In this document: positions 15,634 to 23,691 of the stretch, one piece after another
Layout of the letters: every line of letters begins with the position of its first letter
Numbering within the stretch: position 1 is the first letter of the stretch
Source: a virus
Length of the DNA: 29,250 nt
Strand: one strand, 5' to 3'
Virus record (IMG/VR): IMGVR_UViG_3300022842_000048
Coordinates: 1 to 29,250 of that record
The notes under the pieces: model-generated
Told to the model about the DNA's origin: nothing
Databases searched by the model: none
The model's input: the letters and a program-made list of their open reading frames with translations, nothing else
Made by a program: the position numbers and the translations under genes

Positions 15634-15641
<8 letters not shown>
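15228..15641 (+). CDS. nrdI: NrdI flavodoxin-like protein
   Basis: 137 residues. The FMN-binding loop [12 protein letters not shown] (~7-18) and [14 protein letters not shown] (~53-66), with [11 protein letters not shown] (~87-97), match NrdI, which supplies superoxide or reducing equivalents for assembly of the Mn(III)-tyrosyl cofactor of NrdF. The ATG has AGGAG 6 nt upstream. It overlaps nrdE by 8 nt, so nrdI-nrdE-nrdF form one operon. Confidence 0.93.
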
Positions 15642-18695
<3,054 letters not shown>

Positions 18696-18943: not shown

Positions 18944-19015
18944 TGGGGTGTAGCTCAATTGGCAGAGCAACGCTCTTGTAAAGCGTAGGTCAATAGTTCG
19001 AATCTCTTAGGTGGA
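18944..19015 (+). tRNA. tRNA-Thr(UGU)-like gene with unmatched acceptor stem
   Basis: D arm GCTC/GAGC with loop AATTGGCA, anticodon arm ACGCT/AGCGT with loop CTTGTAA (anticodon TGT, Thr) and T loop TTCGAAT are all correctly spaced. The T stem AATAG/CTCTT has one mismatch. The acceptor strands (TGGGGTG at 18944-18950 and AGGTGGA at 19009-19015) do not pair, with two wobbles at best. No CCA is encoded. It may be a decayed or chimeric tRNA rather than a working one. Confidence 0.5.
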
Positions 19016-19046: not shown

Positions 19047-19823
19047 ATGTCAAATAAGTTTGTAATGCCAGTAAAGGGAAAGTATGGAATTACTTCTCCT
19101 TTTGGCTGGAGGAAAGATCCCGTAACTAAGAAAAATACTAGGCATCACAATGGTGCAGACATAGTTACTGGAAAGAAAGATGAGCCAGTTCTTGCTGTTA
19201 TGAACGGTAGAATTGTTAAGGCTCAAAAGTCTACGGCCAAGAGCGGTGGCTTTGGCTACTATGTTGTTGTTCGTCATTTTATAGATGGAAAGTTTTATAC
19301 ATCATTGTATGCTCACATGAAAGCTAATTCATTTAAGGTTAGAGTTGGTCAGCTTGTAAAGGCTGGAGATCAGCTTGGAATTATGGGAACGACTGGGTAT
19401 AGCACTGGTGTTCATTTGCACCTGGAAATATGGAAGGGCAGGACACATGGCTGGTCTGCTGACGGCAAGGGATTCGTAGAGCCAATCAGTTTTCTTGAGG
19501 CCATGGACAAAGCAGCTGAAGCAAAATCTTTTGCCAAAGTAGCGTCGCCAAAGCCAAAGACAGCTAACCCTGTACCAGATCATCTAACAGGATATAAAAC
19601 TAGCGGTAGTAACACAAAGACTTCTACCTCAAAACCTGTTACAAAGGCTCCTGTGGCTTCTAAAAAGCCTTCAAAGCCAGACAAGGTCTATACCGTAAAG
19701 TCTGGGGATACCTTGACAAAAATTGCAAGGGACAACAAGACTACGATTGCAACCCTAAAGAAATTAAATAAGATCAAGAATGCTAATTTAATTAGAGTTG
19801 GTCAGGTAATTAAACTACCGTAA
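19047..19823 (+). CDS. endolysin: M23 peptidase plus LysM domain
   Basis: 258 residues without a signal peptide, so export needs a holin. The M23 metallopeptidase spans about 5-150: H34 and D38 (RHHNGADIV), H90 (LYAHM) and H123/H125 (GVHLHLEI) form the zinc and catalytic set. A Lys/Ser/Thr/Pro-rich linker (165-212) leads to one LysM domain (214-257, VYTVKSGDTLTKIARDN to VGQVIKLP) that binds peptidoglycan. It should cut peptide cross-links in the host wall at the end of infection. Ribosome site AGGAGA is 5 nt before the ATG. Two holin-like genes follow. A virion-associated hydrolase is a less likely alternative. Confidence 0.9.
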   Translation: MSNKFVMPVKGKYGITSPFGWRKDPVTKKNTRHHNGADIVTGKKDEPVLAVMNGRIVKAQKSTAKSGGFGYYVVVRHFIDGKFYTSLYAHMKANSFKVRVGQLVKAGDQLGIMGTTGYSTGVHLHLEIWKGRTHGWSADGKGFVEPISFLEAMDKAAEAKSFAKVASPKPKTANPVPDHLTGYKTSGSNTKTSTSKPVTKAPVASKKPSKPDKVYTVKSGDTLTKIARDNKTTIATLKKLNKIKNANLIRVGQVIKLP

Positions 19824-22200: not shown

Positions 22201-22488
22201 TTGAAGAATGACGACTGGAAAGAATCAGCGTCCTGTAGAGACTATGAAGTAAATCTATTCTTCGATGATTATGAAGATAATGAATCACGAAGACCAGCAA
22301 TTGATAAGATCTGTTCTGAATGCCCCGTAGCAAAGCAATGCTTCGCTGTCGGAGTTTCTCAAAGAGAATGGGGAGTATGGGGAGGTATCTACCTTGAAAA
22401 CGGTAAGATAAATAGAGAATTTAATAGACACAGGACAAAGGCAGACTGGGCAGAGACCTGGCAATATTTAACGATGGACAATAAATAA
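22201..22488 (+). CDS. whiB: WhiB-like Fe-S transcription factor
   Basis: 95 residues from a TTG at 22201. Four Cys: C12 (ASCRD), C38, C41 and C47 (ICSECPVAKQCF) would hold a 4Fe-4S cluster. GVWGG (58-62) is the family's turn, and a basic C-terminus (NREFNRHRTK) can bind DNA. WhiB-like (Wbl) proteins are restricted to actinobacteria and their phages, where phage copies can override host Wbl regulation or superinfection. The GGGGTAGG upstream serves as ribosome site. Strong evidence for the host group. Confidence 0.92.
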   Translation: MKNDDWKESASCRDYEVNLFFDDYEDNESRRPAIDKICSECPVAKQCFAVGVSQREWGVWGGIYLENGKINREFNRHRTKADWAETWQYLTMDNK

Positions 22489-22489
22489 T

Positions 22490-22735
22490 ATGTATACAGA
22501 TGCAATGAGAGCAGCATTCAGATCACTGGCACACTACTCACCAAAAGGTTTTGGACTAGAGATCGTAGACAATGATCAGTTTATTACAGTACGAGCACCA
22601 GAGCGCAACTTCATGAGGCTTACTGATGAGGACAGGCGAATGGCAATAGAGTATATGGCTAGAGTAAAGAAGGCACTAGAAGATAATGGTGCAATTGTTT
22701 TGCTAGTAAGAGAAGGCGGAGAGGAGCAGGCATGA
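22490..22735 (+). CDS. hypothetical small protein
   Basis: 81 residues. DAMRAAFRSLAHYSPKGFGL, then IVDNDQFITVRAPERNFMRL and a helix (EDRRMAIEYMARVKKALED) ending in a strand GAIVLLVRE. A mixed alpha/beta fold, unrecognised. It follows the WhiB-like gene at 1 nt and overlaps the next gene through ATGA. Confidence 0.5.
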   Translation: MYTDAMRAAFRSLAHYSPKGFGLEIVDNDQFITVRAPERNFMRLTDEDRRMAIEYMARVKKALEDNGAIVLLVREGGEEQA

Positions 22736-23148
22736 TTATGGGAGTAACAGAATTCGTTTTATTCATAGCTACTATTGTACTATTTGCAAGTCTTGTTAGC
22801 TATGGACTAACCCTGAGAGTTAAGATTACTAGACTTTCTAACCTTTTAGCACAAGAGGTTGTTGACAAGATCTCCATATCAAATAAGCTTGCAGCCATGG
22901 TATCTGAGAAGAATTCAGATACCCTACAGCAAAGCGACGGGTTCATAAAGTTCTTATCTGAGTCTAGAGACTCTGCATTTAAATATATTGAAGACGTTCA
23001 AAAAGAGCTTGACACTTTTATTAAAGATGTAGGTCCAGTAGTCAATGCATATCGAGAGGTATCCACAGAGGATGCGGGATCTCAAAAAATTATAGAAGCA
23101 TATGACAATCTGGCGAAGTTTCTTCCAGAAGAATCTTCTAAGAATTAG
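22732..23148 (+). CDS. membrane-anchored coiled-coil protein
   Basis: 138 residues. One transmembrane helix (about 5-27, VTEFVLFIATIVLFASLVSY) is followed by a long charged helical, coiled-coil-like region (LAQEVVDKISISNKLAAMVS to EAYDNLAKFLPEES). No enzymatic motif. Possible roles are membrane scaffolding or lysis accessory; both are guesses. The ATGA overlap couples it to the previous gene. Confidence 0.55.
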   Translation: MIMGVTEFVLFIATIVLFASLVSYGLTLRVKITRLSNLLAQEVVDKISISNKLAAMVSEKNSDTLQQSDGFIKFLSESRDSAFKYIEDVQKELDTFIKDVGPVVNAYREVSTEDAGSQKIIEAYDNLAKFLPEESSKN

Positions 23149-23150
23149 TT

Positions 23151-23179
23151 TAAACAAAACATCTAGAATGATGTATAAT
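23151..23179 (+). promoter_or_regulatory. sigma-70-like promoter for candidate small RNA
   Basis: TAAACA (23151-23156, 4 of 6 to consensus), 17 nt, then perfect TATAAT (23174-23179). The predicted start (~23186) is only 2 nt before the 5' arm of the hairpin at 23188. Confidence 0.55.
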
Positions 23180-23187
23180 TAAATAGT

Positions 23188-23268
23188 CCCCACACAGGAC
23201 AAGGATTTAGCTTCTTAGGATGACTAGTTACCATTTTCTGGGCCAACGTACCAGGTTTCTGTGTGGGG
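23188..23268 (+). ncRNA. candidate structured small RNA closed by a perfect 10-bp helix
   Basis: CCCCACACAG (23188-23197) and CTGTGTGGGG (23259-23268) are exact inverted repeats enclosing 61 nt. Inside, CTGG (23238) pairs with CCAG (23251) around a 9-nt loop, and TTAG/CTAG can form another small stem. The helix begins where the preceding promoter should start, and the gap before it has no convincing gene. It is followed by CTTTAT, a short terminator-like tail. It is not a standard tRNA cloverleaf. It could be a small RNA or a 5' regulatory element of the TUDOR-like gene. Confidence 0.5.
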
Positions 23269-23273
23269 CTTTA

Positions 23274-23282
23274 TGCTATAAT
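23274..23282 (+). promoter_or_regulatory. extended -10 box before a leaderless ATG
   Basis: TGC-TATAAT, a perfect extended -10, 6 nt before an ATG at 23289. That ATG opens a 25-codon frame different from the TUDOR-like frame. Confidence 0.5.
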
Positions 23283-23298
23283 AAATATATGCCTTATA

Positions 23299-23691
23299 GT
23301 GTTGGAGAAAAGGGAAGCTTGGGGAGGAAATGCGGGATTCTCTTGGTCTCGCTCAATAGTAAATAGAATGAGGGATAAGGCAATGTTTAGTGATTTTGGT
23401 AAGGATTATACAAGGGCTGAGAGGCTCACAGATTTTGGCAAGGGTTATGACAAGGATGAGATGTATAAAGCCGTTAAAACGGGTGCTATGGTCTCCTGGA
23501 ATAGCTCTGGTGGTCGGGCAACGGGTAAAGTAAAGAGAATTATTTCTAGCGGAACATATAATGTGCCAGGAACAAGCGTGTCTCTAAACGCTTCTCAAGA
23601 TGATCCAGTAGCTGTCATAACCCTTTATCGTAATGGAGAAGCTACAGATGTTACAGTAGCTCATAAGCTAAAGACTCTTAGGATGCTTTAA
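23299..23691 (+). CDS. TUDOR-like (hypervirulence-associated/DUF2945-type) protein, start uncertain
   Basis: 130 residues if the GTG at 23299 is used. The C-terminal domain, GAMVSWNSSGGRATGKVKRI through VPGTSVSLNASQDDPVAVIT to TVAHKLKTL, closely follows the HVA1 TUDOR-like pattern (SWNSxGGxAxGxV ... VAHK). The N-terminal half has a repeated DFGK-Y motif (SDFGKDYTRAERLTDFGKGY). Other possible starts are GTG 23263 (inside the hairpin) and ATG 23368, just after the stop of a 25-codon ORF. Function unknown. Its TAA overlaps the stop of the converging HNH gene. Confidence 0.6.
   Translation: MLEKREAWGGNAGFSWSRSIVNRMRDKAMFSDFGKDYTRAERLTDFGKGYDKDEMYKAVKTGAMVSWNSSGGRATGKVKRIISSGTYNVPGTSVSLNASQDDPVAVITLYRNGEATDVTVAHKLKTLRML

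Follow-up and report, generated by a model that had tools for sequence, protein, structure and literature searches.

The window analyzed in this study is a 29,250-nt stretch of DNA (positions 1 to 29,250 of IMG/VR virus record IMGVR_UViG_3300022842_000048) from a virus that infects freshwater actinobacteria. The phage encodes a WhiB-like protein (22201-22488; Pfam Whib, E=3e-13), and its terminase shares 54% identity with those of Karimac-type Streptomyces phages. Upstream of the element described below are genes for ribonucleotide reductase (15634-18695) and for a peptidase/LysM endolysin (19047-19823). A tRNA-like match at 18951-19008 (RF00005, 40.8 bits, model positions 8-63), where ARAGORN calls no tRNA, is possibly a decayed or unusual tRNA, and a perfect consensus promoter (TTGACA-17-TATAAT) is found on the minus strand at 26137-26109. 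Related phage contigs carry a manA RNA by tRNA genes (L023 670-851) and a tmRNA gene (L025 7295-7617).

The element is flanked on the plus strand by the gene for a 138-aa membrane/coiled-coil protein (22732-23148), whose relatives are found just upstream of the RNA more often than any other neighbour, and by a gene that starts with MPYSVGEKGS and matches Pfam Hva1_TUDOR (23289-23691; E=3.8e-9). The frame of this downstream gene is broken after the start in this phage. The MPYSVGEKGS start at 23289 is intact in L151; in the window the frame shifts soon after, placing the Hva1_TUDOR part in another frame, and L001, which matches the window at 23289-23400, has the same shift. The frameshift may be natural, the gene may be broken, or the two assemblies may share an error. 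A perfect 13-bp inverted repeat (23440-23452 with 23613-23625) lies inside the Hva1_TUDOR reading frame.

A sequence-only reading of this gap had proposed a candidate phage small RNA with its own promoter, and comparison with relatives bears this out, pointing to a conserved, single-copy, structured and covarying element that appears to be promoter-driven. The predicted promoter occupies 23151-23179 on the plus strand (TAAACA at 23151-23156, 17 nt, TATAAT at 23174-23179). Its 10/12 match is as described, but a scan found 25 such sites in the region compared to 26.2 in shuffles, so the match by itself is no more than chance would give. From the promoter position, an RNA start would be expected at approximately 23185-23186, and the putative small RNA of ~88 nt would extend over 23185-23272 (plus strand), its ends being placed by the promoter and by the closing helix plus a T-rich tail. 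The perfect 10-bp inverted repeat was confirmed (CCCCACACAG at 23188-23197 and CTGTGTGGGG at 23259-23268, the two arms of the closing helix, P1), as was its 81-nt span, with 61 nt enclosed. The second, extended -10 (TGCTATAAT, 23274-23282, plus strand) is also real. It lies 6 nt before the ATG at 23289, consistent with a leaderless mRNA from the next gene, and a downstream -10 is present in 73 of 76 relatives.

The element had been described as neither a tRNA nor a known riboswitch, and we agree on both counts. ARAGORN calls no tRNA in the window, Rfam gives no tRNA or tmRNA match at the element, and Rfam 15 has no match within it at the gathering threshold or at E<=5, bar one chance hit; the family elements of relatives are likewise without a match in Rfam 15. 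The window element folds modestly better than chance, with z-scores of -2.6 on the plus strand and -3.0 on the minus strand. With folding this modest and the promoter scan at chance level, the window sequence alone would not prove an RNA, and it is the relatives that do so.

Searching IMG/VR with the repeat and a free middle returned more than 60 contigs that share the whole anatomy, beyond the repeat itself: a -10, GTCCCCACACAG, a middle of TTAG..GATG..TAGTTACC, CTGTGTGGGG and a second -10. These first relatives were found by the P1 pattern or by neighbour proteins, with the core described below not used. The set was then widened by core scans and neighbour proteins, and family counts are lower bounds. 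Some members were gathered by the core pattern, and sequences of this kind went into the covariance model. The window element is one member of a large, unannotated family of predicted RNAs carried by more than 100 actinophage contigs.

Compensatory change in the closing helix was one of two tests named in the earlier reading, and it is present: in an alignment of 48 sequences, 7 of the 10 pairs have changed on both sides (45 cells), a score reached by none of 500 shuffles. The other was whether homologues code a protein through the element, and none do. Because the first elements had been cut out by their helix, the helix test was repeated on 85 core-selected elements, of which 55 form a perfect helix of 9 bp or more, built from 33 distinct arm sequences. 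The corresponding figures were 12.5% when 3′ flanks were swapped between elements and 0% on shuffling. Each of the 76 unique P1-type elements has an upstream -10 that matches at least 5/6 positions and usually lies 8-10 nt ahead of the helix; among shuffles the figure is 46%. Since the scan alone gives no excess, it is this conservation that supports the window promoter. Downstream of the closing helix, the T fraction is 0.46, as opposed to 0.32 in flanks.

The covariance model matches the window at 23187-23269 (E=7e-13), with a seed that contains the window's own sequence through L001. When whole contigs (37-118 kb) were searched, each carrying contig had one copy, and second matches fell at the same place on the opposite strand, a shadow of the inverted repeat. 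A search for a chromosomal gene using the 2-nt-spacer pattern, with the 3-nt spacer left out, gave one chance match (Rheinheimera) in 84,980 species genomes, and blastn queries of isolate phages with the window element or with a P1-type relative gave chance matches or none. A local GAUG/CAUU hairpin can be drawn inside the RNA. Several relatives (L136, L160, L175, L178) do not keep it, so this hairpin does not explain why the core is conserved.

Actinobacterial 23S rRNA positions 1909-1929, which form helix 69 (H69) and the strand towards helix 70, are matched exactly by the reverse complement of the conserved core, CUUAGGAUG-(2-3 nt)-UAGUUACC, with a few H69 loop bases left unpaired. Given the WhiB protein and the Karimac-type terminase, the actinobacterial version of 23S is the expected target. 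It reads GGUAACUA-UAAC-CAUCCUAAGG at E. coli numbers 1909-1930 in Tsukamurella, Streptomyces, Actinomyces, Nonomuraea and a fetched Arthrobacter sequence, and the E. coli 23S differs at this site (CGUAACUA-UAAC-GGUCCUAAGG). On the plus strand of the window, the first half of the core (CTTAGGATG, 23214-23222) is the complement of 23S CAUCCUAAG at 1921-1929, and the second half (TAGTTACC, 23225-23232) is the complement of GGUAACUA at 1909-1916. Between them a variable spacer, AC in the window (23223-23224), faces the unpaired UAAC of the H69 loop at 1917-1920. The core as a whole (23214-23232) is thus perfectly complementary, over 9+8 bp, to the 23S of Streptomyces and Arthrobacter; the references used for pairing (Streptomyces, Arthrobacter and Actinomyces) may not match the 23S of the actual host. 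On the 5′ side, GACAAGG (23198-23204, plus strand) is antisense to 23S CCUUGUC at ~1941-1947 and, together with ATTTAGCT (23205-23212, plus strand), extends the antisense match towards the core. On the 3′ side, TTTTCTGGGC (23234-23243, plus strand) has a weaker antisense match at 23S ~1891-1900 that is not significant alone.

Local alignment of the whole window element to antisense 23S scored 51, compared to 27.0±3.1 for shuffles (maximum 35), 23 for sense 23S, 22 for antisense 16S (E. coli) and 27 for sense 16S. Against antisense E. coli 23S the score was 39. The 26 nt before the window core matched antisense 23S 1931-2030 at a level equalled by 3 of 500 shuffles and by none of 57 other 23S windows. 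Across the family, UAGUUACC is invariant in 42/42 unique sequences of an alignment whose loci were mostly not chosen by core, and the core is nearly invariant in the more than 60 relatives collected without it. The sole UUAG change in the alignment, A to G, still allows a G-U pair at that position of 23S. When duplexes were sought over the whole of 23S, the best site overlapped H69-H70 for 21 of 26 elements and 1 of 78 shuffles. For the window RNA on 23S 1880-1960, the net binding energy with unfolding included is predicted to be a moderate -12.1 kcal/mol compared to -4.8±3.0 for shuffles; this estimate uses a nested structure and opens P1, although P1 need not open.

Several P1-type elements match 23S in the core only, and in some short-type relatives (L081, L174) the antisense extension on the 5′ side is weak. 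For P1-type RNAs, a second antisense block towards the 3′ end was considered and dropped, being found in 8/99 elements and 14/495 shuffled sequences, which is not significant. A core version suited to E. coli-type 23S (CTTAGGACCNNTAGTTACG) gave three matches in viral contigs, none with the RNA anatomy. Overall, the family has the features expected of trans-acting sRNAs, with conserved predicted complementarity to 23S 1909-1947 and, elsewhere, up to ~2016, and we regard pairing of the RNA with 23S as strongly supported by sequence.

The core is also found in other architectures. A free-spacer scan showed that 3-nt (at least 63 unique) and 2-nt (at least 35) spacers dominate. Besides the P1-closed RNAs, some relatives have a terminator-type layout, in which a -10 precedes ~100 nt that run colinear with antisense 23S; then come the core, a GC hairpin and a T run (L339, L326, L342, L349, L395, L352, L171, L177). 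The whole of L339 is antisense over 23S 1892-2016, with a score of 79 compared to 28.1±3.1 (z=16.4). The 5′ parts of terminator-type elements played no role in their selection, and in most cases they match the adjoining 23S: against antisense 23S 1931-2030, L339 scored 54 (shuffles 18.5±3.6), L395 scored 42 (19.8±4.2) and the cultured phage Francob scored 32 (16.6±3.2), while L321 fails. Unannotated terminator-type RNAs are present in the cultured Streptomyces phages Francob, Annadreamy, Beuffert, LukeCage, Lululemon and IchabodCrane, where the RNA sits between the endolysin gene and the next gene; with its own endolysin and ribonucleotide reductase genes upstream of the element, the window partly shares the gene order of these phages. 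These homologues were found by terminator-type blastn queries, and most blastn matches of L339 are probably to its terminator alone. The core is slightly varied in these Streptomyces phages (TTATATTACC, TTATACTTACC), so some of these homologues would pair less perfectly. Further core-bearing elements adjoin phage tRNA genes (L323, L345, L353, L358, L361, L367, L380, L393) and are closed by other helices, such as CCCATATGC/GCATATGGG and GAATGGTAGG/CCTACCATTC.

A second structured RNA, which we call class II, occupies a comparable position in related phages, in contigs that lack the window-type RNA (L003 5487-5650; L004 ~5690; L010 ~10305; L018 ~2517; L300-L317). It is apparently pseudoknotted and contains CGCTACCTTRGG, a 12-nt match to antisense 23S 1924-1935 with one G-U in some members. 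Class II was considered as a 23S-antisense RNA and not counted, as the overall antisense score (L003, L010, L306 and others) is not significant. The contig of L010, which carries class II, also has a degenerate window-type element (L298) in which the P1 arms are fused into a short hairpin and the core is gone.

The boldest reading of these results, to which we give a probability of roughly 0.6, is that a widespread and hitherto unrecognised family of phage sRNAs pairs directly with helix 69 of 23S rRNA, the main intersubunit bridge, and in this way attacks or reprograms the host ribosome. That the RNA works by pairing with host 23S we consider very likely; an inhibitory outcome, taken by itself, has slightly less than an even chance. 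In the proposed sequence of events, an RNA of ~88 nt would be made during infection of the actinobacterium, and its closing helix would hold a loop that places UAGUUACC on 23S 1909-1916, CUUAGGAUG on 1921-1929 and GACAAGG on ~1941-1947. The RNA would bind H69 and the strands towards helices 70-71, opening the H69 hairpin so that a few bases of its loop bulge out. H69, at the heart of intersubunit bridge B2a, is buried in mature 70S ribosomes. The likely effect would therefore be on free or newly made 50S subunits, since H69 is covered in the 70S, and bound H69 could block late 50S maturation or 30S-50S joining, after which host translation would be reduced or redirected. Point mutations in the H69 loop stop translation or 70S formation (PMC1190176), and in E. 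coli A1919G (H69) and A1960G (H71) lead to degradation of ribosomes, an effect that deleting H69 does not have (PMC4289901). Growth of E. coli is inhibited by a PNA directed against H69 (Kulik et al. 2017, as cited in PMC7038079). Two points weigh against the proposal: H69 is buried in mature 70S ribosomes, and blocking ribosomes could harm the phage as well.

The same complementarity would be seen if the RNA pairs with 23S and helps, shielding or chaperoning H69-H71 in newly made 50S subunits and so letting phage translation continue; host toxins or silencing factors directed at domain IV are examples of what it might guard against. In favour of such a role, the phage depends on host ribosomes, and certain bacterial toxins are known to cut rRNA (see also the review PMC5408214). 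With that said, this reading names no phage or host partner, and because bound H69 cannot form B2a, the RNA would have to leave before translation; we consider it unlikely. Alternatively, the RNA could mark 23S for cleavage or modification, with two short helices on 1909-1930 creating a double-stranded site for a host RNase or a phage enzyme. The two predicted helices (8 bp and 9-10 bp), with a small internal loop between them that hardly varies in size, would fit this, but they are short for RNase III, no associated enzyme is seen in the neighbourhood and early ribosome destruction would hurt the phage, making marking improbable.

A structured sRNA with another target, either an mRNA or a protein, could match 23S by accident of a short conserved loop. 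Some relatives do match 23S only in the 17-20-nt core, and class II RNAs are found at a similar site without a significant antisense match. However, all 17 core bases of the window are complementary in register, the match extends into independent sequence in many relatives, and it is absent from shuffles and 16S controls, so an accidental match seems very improbable.

Lying just upstream of a gene and beginning at a promoter, the element could also act in cis on the downstream gene, as a leader, an attenuator or a processive antitermination element, and the sequence-only reading had suggested control of the TUDOR-like gene. This suggestion does not hold up in the relatives, where the genes after the element are unrelated: they encode HNH-like, MPYxVGEKGS (in the window, one with Hva1_TUDOR), Dps-like, MTTH and other proteins, the labels HNH-like and Dps-like being read from the neighbour sequences with no database match behind them. 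Most of these genes have their own -10 after the element, with a start codon a few bases later. Differing downstream genes, mostly with their own promoters, argue for a free-standing sRNA rather than a leader. Together with the -10 in 76/76 elements, the closing helix and the terminators of relatives, the variable neighbours point to a free-standing transcription unit. A put-like or other processive antitermination RNA would also sit poorly with a single copy per contig and with canonical terminators directly after the core in other relatives, and we regard any cis-acting role as highly improbable. Lastly, an element acting at the DNA level, for instance an attachment site that shares identity with the 23S gene, would account for one-strand identity with an rRNA gene but is scarcely credible, as the identity is interrupted by deletions, the promoter, compensatory P1 changes and terminators point to RNA, no integration signal was seen and the host gene is essential.

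Antisense segments directed at rRNA are a feature of the H/ACA and C/D s(no)RNAs of archaea and eukaryotes, and to our knowledge bacteria are without either guide machinery. The window RNA shares such segments with them but has neither box layout and no hairpin between its antisense halves. As an H/ACA guide it can be rejected, since the segments are 2-3 nt apart in most relatives with no upper hairpin and there is no ACA tail at the predicted 3′ end; as a C/D guide, because box C (RUGAUGA) and box D (CUGA) are both absent from 23185-23272. According to PMC10662448, snoRNAs guide pseudouridines in helix 69, the same helix that the window core matches. The synthetic PNA against helix 69 (PMC7038079) is likewise sequence-directed at this helix, although it is man-made and the RNA described here would be a natural phage gene. 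Trans-acting antisense sRNAs of phages, such as c4 of P1/P7 and STnc6030 of BTP1 (PMC12197685), are also small phage RNAs that base pair, as predicted for the window RNA, but their targets are mRNAs or other sRNAs, whereas the conserved target of the window family would be 23S rRNA; the term rRNA is absent from the text of that review. Takeover at the ribosome is also achieved by phage proteins, which target the ribosomes of the host or co-opt them (PMC10914614), through protein and not through RNA-rRNA pairing. In a literature search with incomplete coverage of subscription journals, we found no phage or bacterial sRNA directed against 23S helix 69, nor a family with a conserved rRNA target.

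Takeover of translation by phages is known through proteins, and phage sRNAs are known to hit mRNAs or sRNAs. If our proposal is true, this family would represent a new way of ribosome control and nature's equivalent of the antisense agents directed at rRNA, and the homologues in cultured Streptomyces phages make the idea directly testable. It would also point to a site on the ribosome that phages have repeatedly found worth targeting.
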